Below are positions 79-39,111 of a stretch of 39,209 nucleotides of DNA, in pieces (within the stretch, counting starts at the first letter, position 1; every line of letters starts with the position of its first letter). The notes beneath the pieces are model-generated. The model was not told the origin of the DNA. It worked only from the letters and a program-made list of their open reading frames with translations, and ran no database searches. Origin of the DNA: a virus; the IMG/VR virus record IMGVR_UViG_3300025309_000028, positions 1 to 39,209 of that record, one strand, 5' to 3'. The translations under genes were made by a program, and so were the position numbers.

Positions 79-155
79 GGGTCGTTAGCTCAGTTGGTTA
101 GAGCAGAGGACTCATAATCCTTTGGTCGCTGGTTCGAGTCCAGCACGACCCACCA
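79..155 (+). tRNA. tRNA with CAU anticodon, probably tRNA-Ile2 (lysidine type), less likely elongator tRNA-Met
   Basis: The cloverleaf is complete: acceptor GGGTCGT (79-85) pairs with ACGACCC (145-151), followed by A and an encoded CCA (153-155). The anticodon stem GAGGA/TCCTT encloses the loop CTCATAA with anticodon CAT, and the T arm reads GCTGGTTCGAGTCCAGC. The variable and T arms (TTGGTCGCTGGTTC) resemble E. coli tRNA-Ile2, whose gene ileX also lies near rpoD; this favours Ile2 over Met, but identity cannot be proven by eye. The 3' half (112-155) is shared with the end of an integrase reading frame on the other strand, so it served as the attachment site of an integrative element. Confidence 0.93.
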
Positions 156-208: not shown

Positions 209-346
209 TGTGGGGGAGTGTTTGATTTGGCACTAAGGGAATAAGCCAAAAAAGTGGGAAGAACCGCGACAACACGGTGTGGGGGAGTGTTTGATTTGGC
301 ACTAAGGGAATAAGCCAAAAAAGTGGGAAGAACCGCGACAACACGG
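209..346. repeat. Two perfect 69-bp tandem copies of the phage left terminus
   Basis: Positions 209-277 and 278-346 are identical. Each unit starts TGTGGGGGAGTG and carries GATTTGGCAC (224-233 and 293-302). The phage terminus is thus present twice, 69 bp apart. On the minus strand this appears as a 23-residue repeat in an open frame that is not a gene. Either the spacing of transposase sites is natural to this phage, or the end was duplicated after insertion. Confidence 0.9.
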
Positions 347-3000: not shown

Positions 3001-5100
3001 ATGAAAACCCACTACTCCAGCGCCGAGCTTGCCGCGATGAAGCTGCCGGGATTGCCGAAAACAAAAAAAGGGGTGCTAGAAAAGGCAGTGCGCGAAGGCT
3101 GGGCGAAGCAAAAGCGAGCTGGTTGCGGCGGCGGGTTTGAATACGCCGCTTCCAGCCTGCCAGCCGAGGCGCAAGCCGCTTTGCGTGCCGCTCATGTTGA
3201 GCGGGTGGTACAGAGCTGCGCGCCACTGGTAGTGGCACCGGTCACGGTTAAAACCACGGCGGCGCCGTGTTATGAGGTGGATCGGGCGAGCAGCACGGCG
3301 CGGCAGCGCGAAGAGGAATTGGCGCGCAGCACCGTGCTGCGCAAGCTGGATGAGTTGCAGCACGCGGCGGGTTCAAGCCGCGAGGCGGCGATGACCACGC
3401 TGCTGACGATGGCGAGTGCGGGCACGCTGGGTGATGCGCTGTGTGCCACGCTGCGCATGGCACGGGATGCGCGCGGCAAGAAGGGCAATGAATACCCTTC
3501 GGTGCGCTCGTTAAAACGCTGGATCGCCAAGAGCAAAGCTGGTGATCTAATGCCCAGGGTTGCGCAAGCCGATATGCGCATCCAGCCGTGGCACGCGCTG
3601 GCGATAGCGCTGCGCCAACGCCCGCAAGGCAGCAGCCTGACATGGCTGCGCGAACAGATTGCCGCGCAGTGGGATGCCACATGGGGCGAAACGATACCCA
3701 GCTACCACGTGGTGCGCCGTTTTTTCACCGAGAAATTCAGCCAGATAGACCAGTTAAAAGGCCGCTACACCGGCTCGAAACTGCGAAGCCACAAGTTCTA
3801 CCAGCACCGCACCAGCGAAGGGCTGGCACCGGCGATGGAAGTCCACGCCGACGGCTGGAATACCCACTTCACCGCGCCGCATCCGGTCACCGGCGAATTT
3901 GTCACCTACGAGGTGTGGCACTTCCATGACGTGGCCACGCGCTTCGTCACACCGCCCGGCCTTGGCCTGACTGAGAAATTTGAAGTAATTGCCAAGGGGT
4001 TGGAAAACTACATCCGCTACTTCGGCGTGCCACTGATCGTGATGACCGACTCTACCAAGATCATTCGCGGATCGGCGCGCTTCACCAAAGACCCGGTGCG
4101 CTCGATCGAGGAGCGTGTCGGCTGCACCATCACCCACCCCAAAGAAGTCGGCAACTCGCAGGCCAACGGCATCTGCGAAAACTTCAACACCAGCTATCTG
4201 GACAAGCGCAGCCGCGAGCTGGCCACCTACCAGAGTAAAGGGCAGATGGACGAACTCACCTTCAAGCGCGTCAGGAAGCTCACCGCCGCGATGGTCAAGG
4301 CCGCCAACGCTGGCGATCTGGCCGAGCGCGACCAGAAGAAGCGCGAGGCAGAGCGCATGGGTAAAGGGCTGGTGTTCACCAGCCATGCCGAGGCGGTGGA
4401 CTGGATCAAAGGCATCTGCGCCGAATACAACCACCGGCCGCACCGCGGCCTCCCGAGGGTGCGCGGCGAAGACGGCAGGCTGCGCCATCAGACCCCGGCA
4501 GAAGCGGTGGCTCAACACGCCGCAAATGGCTGGAAACCGGAGCTGATGGGTGACACGCCGGAAGCGCACGAAGTTTTCCTGATTGACACATTCCGCCCAC
4601 GCGTCATCGTTAAGGTCACCCGCGAAACCGTCAGCCCATACGGTGGCATGCGCTTCCGCAATGCCGAGGCACTCGGCCACTGGAACGGCAAGGAGGTCGT
4701 CGTGGTGTACGACATCCACGAATGGCAAAGCGTGCGTGTGGAAGATATGAAGGGCGCGTTGATCTGCATGGCCGAATTTGTCGCCGCGACCGGCTACCGC
4801 GCCGTCACTGCCTACGAAGACGCCGAAGAGAAGCGCGCCAAGGCGCAGATGCGCCGCCGCGAGAAACAGATCGCGCAGATCGAGGCGCGCAACCCGGCAG
4901 CGGCCATCGAAGAGAAGACCGTTAAAACCATCGTGGACTTCATCGATATTAACCCTCAGCCGGCCCCGCAGCGCGAGCTGACCGCAGCCGATTTCATGCA
5001 GGAAAAAACCGAAGAAAAGGAAAGCAACTTCGGCGACACCGTGATGTGGTTGCACGGAAACGGGGAAGACCCGCGCAATAAAGAAGTGGCCGCTCAATAG
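3001..5100 (+). CDS. A: MuA-type DDE transposase
   Basis: The 699-residue protein matches Mu transposase in length (663 in Mu) and order. Residues about 5-65 form the Mu-type winged DNA-binding domain (SSAELAAMKLPGLPKTKKGV). The RNase H-like core carries D284 (VHADGWNTHF), D350 (IVMTDSTK) and E393 (QANGICENFN), a credible DDE triad. A beta-barrel (about 520-600, HEVFLIDTFRPRVIVKV) and a basic coiled C-terminal region for contacts with the B protein follow. It catalyses strand transfer of the phage ends during integration and replicative transposition. It is followed 62 bp later by B. A long antisense frame runs through it but is a shadow. Confidence 0.96.
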   Translation: MKTHYSSAELAAMKLPGLPKTKKGVLEKAVREGWAKQKRAGCGGGFEYAASSLPAEAQAALRAAHVERVVQSCAPLVVAPVTVKTTAAPCYEVDRASSTARQREEELARSTVLRKLDELQHAAGSSREAAMTTLLTMASAGTLGDALCATLRMARDARGKKGNEYPSVRSLKRWIAKSKAGDLMPRVAQADMRIQPWHALAIALRQRPQGSSLTWLREQIAAQWDATWGETIPSYHVVRRFFTEKFSQIDQLKGRYTGSKLRSHKFYQHRTSEGLAPAMEVHADGWNTHFTAPHPVTGEFVTYEVWHFHDVATRFVTPPGLGLTEKFEVIAKGLENYIRYFGVPLIVMTDSTKIIRGSARFTKDPVRSIEERVGCTITHPKEVGNSQANGICENFNTSYLDKRSRELATYQSKGQMDELTFKRVRKLTAAMVKAANAGDLAERDQKKREAERMGKGLVFTSHAEAVDWIKGICAEYNHRPHRGLPRVRGEDGRLRHQTPAEAVAQHAANGWKPELMGDTPEAHEVFLIDTFRPRVIVKVTRETVSPYGGMRFRNAEALGHWNGKEVVVVYDIHEWQSVRVEDMKGALICMAEFVAATGYRAVTAYEDAEEKRAKAQMRRREKQIAQIEARNPAAAIEEKTVKTIVDFIDINPQPAPQRELTAADFMQEKTEEKESNFGDTVMWLHGNGEDPRNKEVAAQ

Positions 5101-6253: not shown

Positions 6254-6570
6254 ACGATGCGCACACCTTCGACCTGGCGCGCGCCGCCGTGGCGGCGGAA
6301 AGCATGACGGCGGTGGCGGCGGAGATCGGCTACTCGCGCACCGCGATCTCGCTGTACCTGTCCGGCAAATACGGCGCCGGCGTGGAAAAGCTCGAAGCCG
6401 CGATCCGTGCGCGCTACGACATTTACCCCTGTCCGCACACCGGGCAGGAAATCAGCGGCCCGGACTGCGCGCGCCGCGCCAGCGCACCCCGCCCGTTCGG
6501 CGGACGCGCCAAGGAAGCCAACTGGCTGGCATGCCAATCGTGCCAGCACAACAAGGGAGCCAAATCATGA
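6250..6570 (+). CDS. Helix-turn-helix protein with a C-terminal cysteine cluster
   Basis: The 106-residue protein has a helix-turn-helix at about residues 12-38 (SMTAVAAEIGYSRTAISLYL) like the LacI/XRE type. A C-terminal segment has cysteines (YPCPHTG, PDCARR, CQSCQ) that may bind zinc. It overlaps its neighbours by ATGA on both sides and is probably a phage transcription regulator of the semi-early phase. Confidence 0.75.
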   Translation: MNDAHTFDLARAAVAAESMTAVAAEIGYSRTAISLYLSGKYGAGVEKLEAAIRARYDIYPCPHTGQEISGPDCARRASAPRPFGGRAKEANWLACQSCQHNKGAKS

Positions 6571-6893
6571 TGAAAGACCACGCCCCGCGCCTGCTGGCGC
6601 AACAGCAACGGATCGCCGAAAACGCGGCGATGCAGGAACTCTCGAAGCGCGCCACGCCGCTGTTCTGGCCGGTGTTCATGCTGGCCGGCGCTGTCGCGCT
6701 GTCTTTTGCCGAAAGCGCGTTCGGCGGCTACGTCATCTACTACGCGGATATCGCCGCGCGCGTCGCCGATCTGGCCGCCACCAACGAAGCGCTGGTGCAA
6801 TGCATGAACGGCCAGGCGTTCAGCCTGGGCGACGAGGGCATCCTGCGCTGCCAGATCATCAAATACGAGCTGGTACCGGGGGTGCAATCATGA
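6567..6893 (+). CDS. Single-TM small membrane protein, unknown function
   Basis: The ATG at 6567 has AAGGGAG seven bases upstream. The 108-residue protein has a charged N-terminal helix (about 1-30), one membrane span (about 33-60, TPLFWPVFMLAGAVALSFAE), then a short soluble part with two cysteines. Membrane proteins in the semi-early region of such phages are often of unknown role. It is coupled to both neighbours. Confidence 0.68.
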   Translation: MMKDHAPRLLAQQQRIAENAAMQELSKRATPLFWPVFMLAGAVALSFAESAFGGYVIYYADIAARVADLAATNEALVQCMNGQAFSLGDEGILRCQIIKYELVPGVQS

Positions 6894-9620: not shown

Positions 9621-10058
9621 ATGGCCATGCGCTATCCCATCGACCAACGCCGCCGCGACCTCGCCGCGATCCACATGGCGAAGGCGCAGCTCGGCATGGC
9701 CGATGACGCCTACCGCGACATCCTGTGGTCGGTGGCGCGCGTGCGTTCGGCGGGCGATCTCGACCAGGCCGGGCGCAGCAAGGTGCTGGATCACTTCCGC
9801 GCCTGCGGCTGGAAGCCGGTGGCCAAGGCCAACGAATGGGCTTTCATCGACAAGGCCGCCGCCGATCGCCAGCCGCTGCTGCGCAAGATCTGCATGGTGT
9901 GCAAGAGCCTGGGCGTGGGCAAGGCCTACGCCGAAGGCGCCGCCCGCCGCCAGCACAAGATCGAGCGCAAGCTGGAGATGATGGATCAGGGCGAGCTGTG
10001 GATGCTGGCCGGCGTGCTGGAGCGCACGCGGCAGCACAAGCAGGAAGCGGCCAAATGA
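9621..10058 (+). CDS. gemA: GemA (Mu gp16) regulatory protein
   Basis: The 145-residue protein matches the gp16/GemA family: RRDLAAIHMAKAQLGMADDA then YRDILW near the start and KANEWAFIDKAA followed by LRKICMVCKSLG. In Mu, GemA alters host gene expression and DNA supercoiling. It directly precedes the Mor gene and overlaps it by ATGA, the usual order. Confidence 0.92.
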   Translation: MAMRYPIDQRRRDLAAIHMAKAQLGMADDAYRDILWSVARVRSAGDLDQAGRSKVLDHFRACGWKPVAKANEWAFIDKAAADRQPLLRKICMVCKSLGVGKAYAEGAARRQHKIERKLEMMDQGELWMLAGVLERTRQHKQEAAK

Positions 10059-10435
10059 ATACCGACGCTCCCGTCAATATACTGGAGATCGTCGGGATCA
10101 TCGGCGAAGCCGCCGCGCTCAAGCTGGTGGCGAGTTATGGCGGCGACACCCCTCGCATCCCCGCGTTGCGCAACGTCAGCGCCGAGCACCCGATGGCGCA
10201 GTGCATCGGGCTCGAAGCCCTCACCGCACTATCCAAAGTTCACGGTGGAAGCTGGCTGTTTATCGCCAAGTGCTACAAGGGCATGATCCGGCGGCGCAAC
10301 GCGAACATCGTCAGGGATTACAGCAGTGGCGTGTCAGTCTCCGCACTGGTGCGGTGCTACGGCATCTGCGACCGGCAGATATGGAACATCCTCGGCAGCA
10401 CGGTTGTGGATGACAGGCAGGTGAGTCTTTTTTAA
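10055..10435 (+). CDS. mor: Mor-family transcription activator
   Basis: The 126-residue protein fits Mor/C: an N-terminal dimerisation segment (NILEIVGIIGEAAALKLVAS), the VxxHGGSWLFI-like strand and a C-terminal helix-turn-helix (SGVSVSALVRCYGICDRQIW). In Mu, Mor opens the middle promoter and C the late ones. Only one such gene is seen here, so this protein probably acts on the three conserved late elements at 12240, 20805 and 30104. It closes the coupled early chain. Confidence 0.9.
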   Translation: MNTDAPVNILEIVGIIGEAAALKLVASYGGDTPRIPALRNVSAEHPMAQCIGLEALTALSKVHGGSWLFIAKCYKGMIRRRNANIVRDYSSGVSVSALVRCYGICDRQIWNILGSTVVDDRQVSLF

Positions 10436-10446
10436 GGAGCAACACA

Positions 10447-10737
10447 ATGAATACCGATTGGAACAGCATCCTCACCACCCACCACGCGCGGGCGTTTAGT
10501 GTCGCCGCAAGCTGCCCGGCGCGTTCGGCTGCGGCAGTTCGGCGTTTGATAAATCTTGGATTGGAAACGGGAGCGGCATTCCGTGATATTGGAACAGCAA
10601 TAAAAAACCTGTCCGCGCGCCCTGCGGAAGCCCCTCCGGCACCGACAGGAACGGCTCTTCCAGTTGCAGCGCAGCCAGCATCAGAGACTGGTAATGCCGC
10701 TCCAAAAACACGCGCCACGCGCCGGAAGAAAGCGTAG
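10447..10737 (+). CDS. Doubtful 96-residue frame behind mor
   Basis: An ATG with AAGGAG nine bases upstream opens a frame starting MNTDWNSILTTHHARAFSVA. The first 16 codons lie outside the leftward gene and could be genuine phage sequence; the remainder is antisense to that gene, uses atypical codons (GGA, ACA, CCA) and becomes Ala/Pro-rich with a basic tail. It may be an older gene truncated by insertion of the leftward gene, or a real overlapping frame. Confidence 0.35.
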   Translation: MNTDWNSILTTHHARAFSVAASCPARSAAAVRRLINLGLETGAAFRDIGTAIKNLSARPAEAPPAPTGTALPVAAQPASETGNAAPKTRATRRKKA

Positions 10738-10969
10738 CCAGATCATGCTCCGGATCGAACGCCAGCCCGGCAATAGCGGCATCCGCCTCGCGCTCGTAAA
10801 GCGCGTCGTAGGCCAGCGTCTGGATGGCGGAGAGGTTCGCCCGAAAAAGTTTATTCAGCGGCCACAAGGCCTCGCTGACCTGATCGCCGTCGAGCTTGAA
10901 CGGCCTGACGTGTTTGATGGGGCAGCCCAGATGCTGTTCGGTGAAACGGTCGAGCAGGTCAATTTTCAC
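10496..10969 (-). CDS. Leftward gene between middle and late modules, unknown function
   Basis: A GTG at 10967-10969 preceded by GGAGA starts a 157-residue protein (MKIDLLDRFTEQHLGCPIKH...). Codon use is host-like and the sequence has normal globular composition: WPLNKLFRANLSAIQTLAYD, an acidic helical middle and a hydrophobic end (TGFLLLFQYHGMPLPFP). It runs against the phage operons, as accessory lysogenic genes (morons) do, and overlaps a weak rightward frame. No family is recognised. A hairpin GGGTGG/CCACCC lies upstream at 11018-11034. Confidence 0.72.
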   Translation of the reverse strand: MKIDLLDRFTEQHLGCPIKHVRPFKLDGDQVSEALWPLNKLFRANLSAIQTLAYDALYEREADAAIAGLAFDPEHDLATLSSGAWRVFLERHYQSLMLAALQLEEPFLSVPEGLPQGARTGFLLLFQYHGMPLPFPIQDLSNAELPQPNAPGSLRRH

Positions 10970-11046
10970 GGGGTATCTCCTGTGTTGGTTGGGAATGGGG
11001 ATTTCCAGTTTAACGCAGGGTGGATACCCCACCCAATAGCAGGCTG

Positions 11047-11076
11047 TTGACAGCAGTGCCAAATAGCGCGCAAAAT
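11047..11076 (+). promoter_or_regulatory. Promoter of the Rha leader with an internal copy of the phage-end motif
   Basis: TTGACA (11047-11052) is a perfect -35 box; CAAAAT (11071-11076) lies 18 bp further as a 4-of-6 -10 box. Between them, 11056-11074 (GTGCCAAATAGCGCGCAAA) matches the right-end transposase sites at 39065 and 39087 in 18 of 19 positions. A transposase bound here would cover the promoter. This is the only internal copy this close that was noticed. Confidence 0.6.
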
Positions 11077-11235
11077 CCGCCTCGGTGCTTCAAACACCAA
11101 ACAGCATAGGCGGAAGACCGCGCCCGAAAAATGTGGTTTTTTTACGTCCGTAGTTTATCTATGGCCGGGTGTGGGGCTAATAAAATAGCGGCTTGCCGCG
11201 AATATGCCCGCCGACCTATGCCGGTTTGAAGCACC
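11077..11235 (+). ncRNA. C4-like antisense RNA and its target in the leader of rha
   Basis: The upstream part folds as TCCGCCT (11076-11082)/AGGCGGA (11108-11114) enclosing the small hairpin GGTG-CTTCAAA-CACC. Its 12-mer GGTGCTTCAAAC (11084-11095) is perfectly complementary to GTTTGAAGCACC at 11224-11235, and GCATAGGCGG (11104-11113) pairs with CCGACCTATGC (11211-11221) with one bulged A. Two antisense boxes followed by two target boxes ahead of an antirepressor-type gene is the layout of the C4 RNA of phages P1 and P7. Further hairpins (11188-11199, 11242-11258) make this 313-bp gene-poor stretch highly structured. Confidence 0.62.
11131..11229 (+). CDS. Leader ORF, 32 residues, within the C4-like region
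   Basis: The frame MWFFYVRSLSMAGCGANKIA... ends at a TGA overlapping the antisense target boxes, so translation would cross the region blocked by the C4-like RNA. A similar 'FFYVR.L.MAGCGA' peptide recurs, from memory, in leaders of P4- and P1-like Icd/Ash genes. There is no clear ribosome site. In P1 the C4 target also lies at a leader frame coupled to the downstream antirepressor. Confidence 0.4.
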   Translation: MWFFYVRSLSMAGCGANKIAACREYARRPMPV

Positions 11236-11282
11236 TGGCCGCCCACGGCCTTCGTGGGTTGTCCCTTCAAAGGAGCATAGAT

Positions 11283-11936
11283 ATGAACCAACTCGTCCAC
11301 CAATCCGGTGACCGCCTCATCGTCACCACCCTCGAAATATCCAACCACTTCGGCAAGCGACATGATGACGTGCTGAAGGCTATAAAAAACCTCGAATGCT
11401 CTCAAGAATTTAGCCGCCGCAATTTTGCGGGCACCTCCTACAATGACAGCCAGAACAAGCCTCGCCCCATGTACGAGATCACCCGCGACGGATTCACCTT
11501 CCTGTGCATGGGCTTCACCGGCCCGCAGGCGGCGGTGTGGAAAGAGCGCTACATCGAGGCGTTTAACCAGATGGAGGCCGCGCTGCGCGGCGATCTGCCC
11601 GCGCTGCGGCGCGAGTTGCCGCTGGCGCTGGAGAATGGTCACCTGAAAGACATGGTGCGCGCCCGCGATGAGATCATCCAGGCCAAGGATGGCGTTATCA
11701 TGGGGCTGCAAGACAAGCTGATCGGCTCGCAAGGGCGGCAGATCAGGCTGATCGGGCAGGTGGCGGCGATGCAGAAGCGCCAGCGCGACCGCGAGATCAT
11801 CCAGCTCATCGAGCGCATGGAGTCCGAAGGCAAGCCGCGCCAGGAGATCGCCGCGATGACCGGCAAACCGTTCAACTACATCCGCCAGCGGGTGTTCATC
11901 GCCCGCAACGAGGGGCGGATCGGGGGTGCGGCATGA
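11283..11936 (+). CDS. rha: Rha-family phage regulatory protein
   Basis: The 217-residue protein begins with the Rha signature (RLIVTTLEISNHFGKRHDDV, then LKAIKNLEC...F....Y.....KPRPMYEITRDGFTFLCMGF, then TGPQAAVWKERYIEAFNQME), followed by a coiled, basic C-terminal region. Rha proteins are implicated in phage regulation and often act like antirepressors. SD AAAGGAG lies 7 bases before the ATG. The structured leader suggests control by antisense RNA. The next gene overlaps by ATGA. Confidence 0.88.
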   Translation: MNQLVHQSGDRLIVTTLEISNHFGKRHDDVLKAIKNLECSQEFSRRNFAGTSYNDSQNKPRPMYEITRDGFTFLCMGFTGPQAAVWKERYIEAFNQMEAALRGDLPALRRELPLALENGHLKDMVRARDEIIQAKDGVIMGLQDKLIGSQGRQIRLIGQVAAMQKRQRDREIIQLIERMESEGKPRQEIAAMTGKPFNYIRQRVFIARNEGRIGGAA

Positions 11937-15391: not shown

Positions 15392-17123
15392 CGCCGAAAA
15401 AGACTTCCTCAAGGATATCGCCGAGCTGCAGCGCGAGCTGCGCGCGGAGATCGAGGCAAAGCGGGTCGGGCTCGACCCGTCGCCAGCCGCGCGCCTGGCG
15501 CGCCGCAAGCGCGTGCTGGTGGACGGCGACTTCGAGTTCTTTTGCTATACATACATGCGGCACCACATCCGCCCGCCTGCGTCGGAGTTTCACAAGCACT
15601 TCTTCGTGCGCTTCCCGCAGATACTCGATAAGCCGAGCGGTGCGAAGGAGTGGTGGGTGGCGCCGCGCGGCGAGGCGAAATCATCGCTGGCTACCAAGGT
15701 CGGCCCGTGCTGGGTGGCAATATGCGCGCTGCTGCAAAAGCCCTCGATCCGCGCCGAGGTCGGCTGGCAAGGCGAGGTGCCGTACTTCATCGACTACATC
15801 ACCATGCTTGGCGCGGAGACCAAGCTGCCGACCAAGCTGCTCGAAGTCGTTAAAGTCGAGCTGACAGTTAACGCCGCGCTGGCGCTGGATTTTCCCGAGG
15901 CGTGCGGCGCGTCGAAGAACTGGAAGATCGGCGACTTCACCACACGCAGCGGCGTGAAGATGGAAGCGTTCGGCGCGGAGCAGGCCATTCGCGGCACGTT
16001 CCACGGCGCGAGCCGCCCGAAGCTGCTGCTGGGCGACGACCTGATCACCGACAAGGAAGCGAAAAGCCCGACCGAGTGCAACAACCGCTGGGACTGGCTG
16101 GAAAAGGCCGTGGACTTCCTCGGCCCGCCGGACGGCAGCGTCAAGTTCGTCGGCGTCGGCACCGTGCTCAACAAGAACGATCCGATCAGCCGCGCCAAGG
16201 CCGCGATCGGCCACCTGGTGCATCACTTCCGCGCGCTGATCGAGCTGCCGGAGCGCATGGACTTGTGGGAGGAATGCCAGGCGCTGATGCTCAACCGGGA
16301 CAAGCCCGCAGAAGAAGCGGCCAACGAGCTGGGCTGCGTGCTGGAAGAAAACCAGTTGCCGTCCTACCTGTTCTACCAGGCGCACCAGGTGGAAATGGAT
16401 GAGGGCGCGCAAATATCATGGCCGGGCGTGCGCAGCCTGTACTGGCTGATGCGCCAGCGCGCCAAGAATGCCAAGGCGTTCGCCACCGAGATGCAGGGCG
16501 ACCCGCGCAGCGACGAGGACAAGGTGTTCTCGCCGGTGCAGTTCTTCGTGTCGCGCCTGTCGCACTGGAAGCCGTTCGGCGCGTGCGACCCGTCGATGGG
16601 CAAGGGCGAGAAGTCCGACCCGTCCGCGATCGTGGGCGGCTACTACGACACGCAGCGCCAGCGGTTGCACGTCGATTACGCGGCCATCAAGCGGCGTGTG
16701 CCGAGCAAGCTGGAAGCCGATCTGATCGAGTTCCAGCGCGAGTTCAAGTGCATCGCCATCGGCTTCGAGAACAACAACGCCTATGAGCACATGCGCCAGA
16801 CGTTCATCACGACCGGGCTGGCCAAGGGCGTATCGCTGCCGCTGGTGCCAGTGACCGCCACGGTTGACATGGAGGTGCGCATCGAGTCGCTGGAGCCGTA
16901 CATCACCGATGCATTCGACCCGCGCATCATGTTCAGCCCGGAGCTGACGCTGCTGCTGGCCGAGCTGGATAGTTGGCCGGAGAAGCAATCCAACCACCAC
17001 TACGACGGCCTGAGCGCGCTACACATCCTGTGGGTGATCGCGGTGTCGCGCAGCGCGCCGATGGAATTCCAATCAACCGGCCACCGTGCTGCCTCATCAG
17101 GCCGCATGGCGGGATATATGTGA
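15381..17123 (+). CDS. Terminase large subunit, Mu gp28-like
   Basis: The 580-residue protein contains an ATPase N-terminal half with a Walker A-like APRGEAKSSLATK near residue 100 and Walker B KLLLGDDLIT near 215, and a nuclease half beginning ACDPSMGKGEKSDPSAIVGG (near 400). It powers DNA translocation into the prohead and cuts at headful. A longer frame starts 51 bp upstream, but MASNAEKD is preferred because it follows the coupled small gene. Confidence 0.95.
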   Translation: MASNAEKDFLKDIAELQRELRAEIEAKRVGLDPSPAARLARRKRVLVDGDFEFFCYTYMRHHIRPPASEFHKHFFVRFPQILDKPSGAKEWWVAPRGEAKSSLATKVGPCWVAICALLQKPSIRAEVGWQGEVPYFIDYITMLGAETKLPTKLLEVVKVELTVNAALALDFPEACGASKNWKIGDFTTRSGVKMEAFGAEQAIRGTFHGASRPKLLLGDDLITDKEAKSPTECNNRWDWLEKAVDFLGPPDGSVKFVGVGTVLNKNDPISRAKAAIGHLVHHFRALIELPERMDLWEECQALMLNRDKPAEEAANELGCVLEENQLPSYLFYQAHQVEMDEGAQISWPGVRSLYWLMRQRAKNAKAFATEMQGDPRSDEDKVFSPVQFFVSRLSHWKPFGACDPSMGKGEKSDPSAIVGGYYDTQRQRLHVDYAAIKRRVPSKLEADLIEFQREFKCIAIGFENNNAYEHMRQTFITTGLAKGVSLPLVPVTATVDMEVRIESLEPYITDAFDPRIMFSPELTLLLAELDSWPEKQSNHHYDGLSALHILWVIAVSRSAPMEFQSTGHRAASSGRMAGYM

Positions 17124-22862: not shown

Positions 22863-23927
22863 ATGAAAAGTTTGACTCAGTTTTTTAGCGCGATGCTGGT
22901 CGCTGTGATGGCCTTCGCGACATGGTGCTTCGAGCGTGCGCACGCCGCACTGTTTGCCTACATGCATCGCCAGGGCATGATCTTGTGCGTGGCCGCACCA
23001 TTCCCGGTTACCCCAGCGCTGCAAGCCATCGCGCTGGCGTACCGCAACAACAAGCTGATCGCGGATGAAGTGCTGCCGCGCGTGCCGGTCGGGTTGCAGG
23101 CGTTCAAATACATGAGCTACCCCAAAGGGCAGGCCATGACGGTGGTCGAGACGCGCGTGGGCCGCAAGGGCAAGCCGAACGAGGTGGAGTTCACCGGTAC
23201 CGAGCTCACCGAATCGACTAACGATGAAGCGCTGGACGATGGCGTACCGAACTCGGATATCGAGTTGGCCGCTGCGCAGGGGCTTCCGGATCCGCTCGGT
23301 CGTGCCGTCGAAGGACTCACCGAACTGGTCGCGCTGAAACGCGAAGTGCGCGCCGCCAGTCTGGTGTTCACTGCCGGTAATTACGCCGCCACGAACAAAA
23401 CCACGCTAGCCGGCAACAGCCAGTGGAGCGACTACACCGCCGGCCACAGCGATCCAATCGACGACATCGTGACCGGCATGGACAGTTGCATCATGCGTCC
23501 AAACATCGCCGTGATGGGGCAGGCTGTATCCAGCAAATTGTGCCGCCACCCGGCCATCCTCAAGGCGTTCAACGGCACGACCGGCGACACCGGCATGGTG
23601 CCGCTGCAATACCTCAAGGACCTGTTCGAGCTGGAAGACATCTATGTCGGCCAGGGCTGGGTAAACACCGCGAAGAAGGGGCAGGCCGTCAACCTTCAGC
23701 GCGTGTGGGGCAACAGCTGCGCTCTGCTCTACCGCAACAAGCAGGCCGACACGCAGCGCGGTGTCACGTTCGGCTTTACCGCGCAATTTGGCACCCGCAT
23801 CGCCGGTTCCGAGTACGACAAGAACATCGGCATGCGTGGCGGCCAGATGGTGCGCGTCGGCGAATCCGTCAAAGAACTGCTGATGGCAAACGATCTGGGC
23901 TACCTGATCGCCGACGCGGTCGGTTAA
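22863..23927 (+). CDS. Major capsid protein
   Basis: The 354-residue protein has the major head features: FPVTPALQAIALAYRNNKLI, ADEVLPRVPVGLQAFKYMSY, VEFTGTELTESTNDEALDDG and NRPNIAVMG-like segments, ending with DLGYLIADAV. The ATG at 22863 with AGGAGA eight bases upstream gives an N-terminal hydrophobic extension of about 40 residues (QFFSAMLVAVMAFATWCFER) not expected in capsid proteins; an ATG at 22977 would give a conventional start but lacks a good ribosome site. Confidence 0.93.
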   Translation: MKSLTQFFSAMLVAVMAFATWCFERAHAALFAYMHRQGMILCVAAPFPVTPALQAIALAYRNNKLIADEVLPRVPVGLQAFKYMSYPKGQAMTVVETRVGRKGKPNEVEFTGTELTESTNDEALDDGVPNSDIELAAAQGLPDPLGRAVEGLTELVALKREVRAASLVFTAGNYAATNKTTLAGNSQWSDYTAGHSDPIDDIVTGMDSCIMRPNIAVMGQAVSSKLCRHPAILKAFNGTTGDTGMVPLQYLKDLFELEDIYVGQGWVNTAKKGQAVNLQRVWGNSCALLYRNKQADTQRGVTFGFTAQFGTRIAGSEYDKNIGMRGGQMVRVGESVKELLMANDLGYLIADAVG

Positions 23928-39064: not shown

Positions 39065-39111
39065 GTGCCAAATCGCGCGCAAATCAGTGCCAAATCGCGC
39101 GCAAACTTACA
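39065..39111. promoter_or_regulatory. Right-end transposase sites R2 and R1 and phage terminus
   Basis: GTGCCAAATCGCGCGCAAA occurs at 39065-39083 and 39087-39105, 22 bp apart. This is the same periodicity as R2 and R1 of Mu. The inner sequence is the complement of the left-end motif. The terminal ACA is at 39109-39111, 15 bp beyond the R1 decamer, as at the left. Confidence 0.82.

Follow-up and report, generated by a model that had tools for sequence, protein, structure and literature searches.

A transposase end-type motif over the predicted promoter of a C4-like RNA and rha in Mu-like phages

The rha leader of a Mu-like phage

The window analyzed here, the whole stretch of 39,209 nt from an IMG/VR virus record, is a Mu-like phage, for which blastn found no match among public phage genomes. 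Its genes and sites are collected in Table 1; the structural genes come after rha and are followed by the right end near 39111, where the phage probably terminates with the CTTACA at 39106-39111. The left terminus is duplicated within 211-348, with a 69-bp direct repeat (TGTGGGGGAGTGTTTGATTTGGCAC...) present twice. The flanks of the left terminus, TCAAC on the left and TCAGG on the right, do not amount to a clean duplication of a 5-bp target, which leaves 211 and 280 both as candidates for the true left end. In the window phage and in its relative L213 (positions 1-100, judged by eye) alike, the insertion lies about 60-100 bp downstream from a tRNA gene with a CAT anticodon, which possibly reflects a target preference.

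Table 1. Features of the window, and the two promoter sites of phage G1077
Feature	Position	Strand	Evidence or remark
tRNA-Met	79-155		
Left terminus, two GTGCCAAATCAAACACTCCCCCACA copies in the 69-bp direct repeat	211..302	-	
Full left-end site GTGCCAAATCAAATGCAAA	419..437	-	24.2 bits in end matrix
HTH repressor and Ner-like genes	between left end and transposase A		
Transposase A (MuA family)	3001..5100	+	PF02316 E 3e-19, PF09299 E 5e-9; predicted binder of the site
AAA protein B	after transposase A		gene order
Mor	9725-10435		
-35 element TTGACA	11047..11052	+	96% mean pairwise identity in 8 leaders
Internal transposase end-type site GTGCCAAATAGCGCGCAAA	11056..11074	+	best matrix match in window; conserved in 8 phages
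-10 element CAAAAT	11071..11076	+	overlaps last site bases; conserved GCAAAATCCGC
5' element X (GGTGCTTCAAAC...GCATAGG)	11084..11110	+	12-nt perfect complement to Y; counterpart of P1 a1/b1
Short stem and seven T, terminator-like	11117..11143	+	alignment, sequence inspection; conserved in all leaders
C4-like structured RNA (Rfam sRNA-Xcc1)	11163..11248	+	54.9 bits, gathering score 53
Antisense arm Y (CCTATGCCGGTTTGAAGCACC)	11215..11235	+	complementarity
Target Z over rha ribosome-binding site (CTTCAAAGGAGCATAG)	11265..11280	+	7-nt core complement to Y, same leader
rha-like regulatory gene	11283..11936	+	Pfam Phage_pRha (PF09669), E 2e-30
Right-end site R1	39065..39083	+	motif match
Right-end site R2	39087..39105	+	motif match
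G1077 site in one of its two C4-type leaders (sRNA-Xcc1 type and isrK+C4 type)	L221 9446-9464	+	in promoter
G1077 site in the other of these two leaders	L222 3128-3146	-	in promoter

The rha-like gene is preceded by a structured leader. The only sigma-70-type promoter predicted within 10700-11700 is the one that holds the internal site, and its 18-nt spacer between -35 and -10 is filled by the end motif; transcription is expected to start near 11083. The structured RNA of the window matches the Rfam model sRNA-Xcc1 and not RF01695, while relatives give both sRNA-Xcc1 and C4. Perfect complements of 7-13 nt between X and Y and of 6-7 nt between Y and Z are found within every one of 14 leaders (14/14), which represent several different sequences. 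The antisense arms and their targets change together between phages, as is characteristic of a C4 antisense unit. At the level of sequence, the window leader has the composition of a P1 c4-like unit: the target mimic X, a C4-like RNA with the arm Y, the target Z and rha.

The Rfam family sRNA-Xcc1, described from Xanthomonas, itself looks like a C4-type antisense RNA: its members in this sample pair with the ribosome-binding site of the target and, judged by eye, stand in front of rha, BRO-N-like or KilA-N-like genes. Other structured RNAs were also observed in relatives of the window phage. RT-15 RNA (RF03018) occurs in two of them, L004 (7908-8102) and L009 (9829-10032), the former being of the G009/L023 type and without the rha leader. 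One relative, L007, has both a type II hammerhead ribozyme (16385-16447) and a C4 antisense RNA (6559-6643).

An end-type site in the promoter spacer

The internal 19-mer differs by one base from each of R1 and R2. The original prediction had placed an 18/19 match to both between TTGACA and CAAAAT, and its coordinates and sequence are exact. Allowing up to three mismatches, four matches are found in the window against 0.03 expected by chance. The fourth of them, at 23776 (-), lies in coding sequence and is not conserved in the close relative G004; we do not regard it as a site. To score the motif, we used a weight matrix built from 15 end sites that belong to other phages; the sites of the window and all promoter sites were left out, which avoids circularity. 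The internal site scores 28.8 bits (maximum 30.0), R1 and R2 27.1, the left-end site at 419 (-) 24.2, and the next match 14.9. This runner-up is at chance level, as Markov-shuffled windows give 13.7 on average and 18.9 at most, and the expected count at 28.8 bits is about 3e-6 per window. The motif stands at both phage termini in inverted orientation, with the left copies on the minus strand and the right copies on the plus strand, and the internal site has the orientation of the right-end sites. By its sequence, 11056-11074 is a motif of the transposase end type that overlies a promoter.

The ends of related phages carry the same motif. Left and right ends of relatives have GTGCCAAAT-nnn-GCGCAAA, which is common to two transposase clades only about 30% identical, and the right ends consist of two sites 22 bp apart, stopping at TTACA or CTACA (window, L040, L042, G008, G009). 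Both ends are visible in the window, G003, G008 and G009, and the contigs of G001, G004, G005, L201 and G1077 are without at least one end. For G004, G005 and L201, whose ends fall outside the contigs, the end motif is assigned from members of the same transposase clade (G003, L213, L214, L216), and G1077, whose ends are likewise outside its contigs, is counted as MuA-type by its transposase and not by its ends.

Relatives were fetched through transposase A, and leaders were searched with patterns and a covariance model, the promoter being excluded from both. The 67 leader rows scored represent 66 distinct leaders (L180 and L183 are the same leader). Eight of the 66 distinct C4-like leaders, counting that of G1077, which entered the sample through its other site, carry the site at the same place with 20.2 bits or more, and the other 58 score 13.4 or less. 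The scores are 28.8 in the window, 27.1 in G008, 26.8 in G004, 23.6 in both G001 and G003, 23.3 in G1077, 22.0 in L201 and 20.2 in G005. All eight phages are Mu-like with a MuA-type A from the same broad transposase family, in which they occupy three deep clades. Scanning the whole phage and its relatives thus bears out the original prediction, in that the internal site is the top-scoring one in the window and is kept in relatives, with eight phages carrying it rather than none. In every complete or long leader-bearing phage the promoter site ranks first or second by the end matrix (second in G1077). In the prophage region of G008, the promoter, the right end and the left end hold the three top sites, and the fourth reaches only 10.1; the two best sites of G001 and G003 are the left end and the promoter site; and the best site of G004, G005 and L201 is the promoter site.

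Across the eight leaders, identity is 25% just upstream of -35, which is the random level, 96% in the -35, 91% in the site core, 58% at its free positions and 90% in AAAAT. Variation among the eight sites mostly concerns positions that the end matrix leaves free, and the register of the site relative to -35 and -10 is constant. A scan of 2.9 million viral contigs for RTGCCAAATN5GCAAAATCC, which covers the site and the -10, gave seven matches, five of which are such promoters; the other two (L223, L224) are coding matches with no RNA and were rejected. The phage G1077 has a second, different leader (isrK followed by C4, RF01695) with GTGCCAAATAGCGCGCAAAATCC at the same promoter place. A genome-wide scan with the RNA model found 33 C4-like leaders in 20 genomes, and the site is in none of those scored. 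In the sequences compared, conservation appears to follow the leader and the transposase together. We consider it likely that transposase A binds 11056-11074 as an authentic site, and that the promoter of the C4-like RNA and rha has recruited this site as its operator.

Alternative readings and the origin of the site

The reading that retains most weight beside this one, although we regard it as unlikely, is that the regulator is not the transposase but another protein (the rha product, Ner, the C repressor or a host factor) that recognizes GTGCCAAAT...GCGCAAA at the promoter as well as at the ends. The regulation of Mu uses several DNA-binding proteins near the ends, and the choice of A as the binder is itself a prediction. 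Against this, phages that have neither rha nor the leader (G009, L213, L214, L216) still carry the end motif. The region between the repressor and ner genes (1660-1900), where operators of C and Ner are expected, has no end-motif match, the best score being 6.6 bits; the internal site is therefore not a C operator, and an operator of the C repressor or Ner was rejected on this ground. Moreover, where the same leader family occurs with an unrelated transposase, in G1059 and L038, the promoter is without the site. L038 is a phage remnant beside groES/groEL with a BcepMu-like transposase unrelated to A. Two strong end-type sites were observed in it, at 654 (-) and 7600 (-), with 27.2 and 28.8 bits; one is inside the transposase gene and neither is in the leader promoter.

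The right-end orientation and near-perfect match to the end motif would also suit a pseudo-end, paired by A with the left end so that some 11 kb transpose, or an internal element acting in synapsis or as an enhancer. We find this quite improbable. The internal site is followed by ATCCGC, as opposed to CTTACA at the true right end, and has no terminal CA at the end spacing; all eight phages have TCCGC after the motif and none has the terminal CA. As the cleavage dinucleotide is absent, the internal site is predicted to be of a binding type and not a cleavable end. G009, which is complete and has the closest transposase (76%), has the same ends, is leaderless and lacks the internal site, and in some ten further loci that share the end motif and have no closely related leader, no internal site above background was found in the stretches covered. 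The absence of the site from same-ended leaderless phages indicates that it lies outside the transposition core and that transposition does not need it, and the promoter sites are locked to the frame of -35 and -10. The abortive or partial transposition of 28 kb that had been proposed as an alternative is disfavored by the same observations, the missing terminal CA in all eight phages and the site-free G009.

According to another reading, the site serves transposition or immunity and its overlap with the promoter is secondary: bound A would mark the interior of the phage, for example by recruiting B or preventing self-insertion. Mu does have a genome-immunity mechanism, the cause of which is not fully known (PMC7350765). 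The presence of the site, however, tracks the leader and not the phage backbone, and its register with -35 and -10 is constant, which makes this reading highly improbable. Hardly any weight falls on functionless conservation of the spacer, in which the motif would have arisen by accident, been fixed by descent and travelled with the leader: the leaders are homologous and mobile between phages and the motif partly overlaps the -10 flank, but the DNA upstream has decayed to the random level while the core is preserved, variation keeps mainly to the free positions of the end matrix, and the second leader family in G1077 has the site as well. A Mu-type enhancer was rejected because of the position 11 kb inside the phage, the end motif and the absence from same-ended relatives; the original prediction had rightly set the site apart from the Mu enhancer, from which it differs in both position and motif.

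Exceptions are found among Mu-like phages that have a leader of the same type and no site: L182, L187/L200 and L199, whose ends are outside the contigs. A transposase relative through which L182-type ends were sought has a contig that starts within the repressor. L030, with GCCAAAT-type ends and a distant C4-like leader, and L026, with a more distant leader, also have no site. The site-free leaders of L182 and L187 already have GGCGCAAAATCCGC at -10, and the motif part GCGCAAA coincides with that flank. Since GGCGCAAAATCCGC is in place, a spacer that is free in other respects would need only to gain GTGCCAAAT for the end site to be complete. The eight cases do not represent eight independent gains, because the leaders are homologous. 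On the leader tree, which is poorly resolved, five changes of the site label are required; branches with strong support alone impose at least two. Together with the second leader family of G1077, these forced changes point, though not firmly, to more than one recruitment of the site.

A putative transposase operator and its known counterparts

Binding by A, repression and a physiological role are what we infer from the arrangement. Because the spacer and the edge of the -10 are both covered by the site, bound A should exclude RNA polymerase, which makes repression the simplest reading; activation of the MerR kind from within the spacer is less likely, being less expected where the spacer has 18 nt. 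In a lysogen, where A is absent, the promoter would fire and the C4-like RNA would block translation of rha. Upon infection or induction, A would appear, occupy the site and exclude RNA polymerase, turning off the entire unit, the C4-like RNA and rha both. The state of transposition would thereby be read directly at the immunity promoter. The C4-like RNA pool would then no longer be refilled from its own promoter, and rha could be expressed later only via read-through from upstream early or middle transcription. According to the original proposal, repression of the C4-like RNA by A would release rha. What the sequences support is the end-type motif over the promoter and its conservation at this place in relatives; the release of rha is doubtful: one promoter lies upstream of X, the C4-like RNA and rha on the same strand, so that repression would stop both RNAs, and release by A would need read-through into rha from further upstream.

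The recurrence of the end-site arrangement in eight phages suggests that the transposase doubles as a switch of the C4-like RNA and rha. A broader proposition, towards which we lean only narrowly, is that the transposase serves as a transcription factor for the immunity unit by reading its end motif, which promoters of unrelated antisense-RNA leaders would have acquired repeatedly; antisense immunity and rha expression would then be set directly by transposition status. As a layer of phage immunity, C4-type RNA units are widespread, and little is known of their transcriptional input outside P1. Here, if the model is true, the input can be named, as the transposase, and can be tested, and the lysis-lysogeny circuit would be tied to replication by transposition with no regulator dedicated to that purpose. 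A test system is at hand, as one protein and one 60-bp fragment would decide. In transposable phages, operators could be predicted by scanning promoters with the phage's own end motif. In the literature, which was covered in part, we found no paper that joins transposable phages, antisense RNA and an antirepressor.

The closest known system is the immI region of P1 and P7 (c4, icd, ant). Both there and here, a promoter, an upstream copy of the target and a C4-type RNA with two antisense arms belong to one transcript, and the target lies over the ribosome-binding site of a regulator gene. In P1, a1/b1 lies upstream of c4. The C4 antisense RNA of P1 blocks icd/ant. Transcriptional control is a further parallel with the repression proposed here: C1 acts on the P1 operon as its transcriptional repressor, C4 being required too (PMC8198154). 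A listing of such elements has a c4-a1b1 motif next to the c4 antisense RNA (PMC2864571). The present unit differs in that its predicted operator is a transposase end site, as opposed to the immunity-repressor operator of P1, the regulated gene is rha, and the RNA falls into Rfam sRNA-Xcc1 and not C4. The isrK-C4 leader (RF01394 and RF01695) is related in that the second leader of G1077 belongs to this type and has the same site, whereas others of this general type (L050, L054, L055) are without a promoter end site.

Transposases at regulatory sites have precedents as well. The operator/enhancer of Mu (IAS) is bound by both the transposase A and the repressor, and resembles the present case in placing a transposase at a regulatory promoter region, as predicted here. 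The Mu IAS, however, lies about 1 kb from the left end, has another motif than the ends and is required for transposition to be efficient, whereas the site described here is the end motif itself, 11 kb inside the phage and dispensable in relatives. In insertion sequences and the P element, the transposase represses itself via end sites that overlap the transposase promoter. The likeness is that end recognition would block a promoter; the difference is that the present site is far from both ends and would control an operon of an antisense RNA and a regulator. C4-type immunity RNA and self-repression by a transposase are thus kinds already known, and the present arrangement varies on them.
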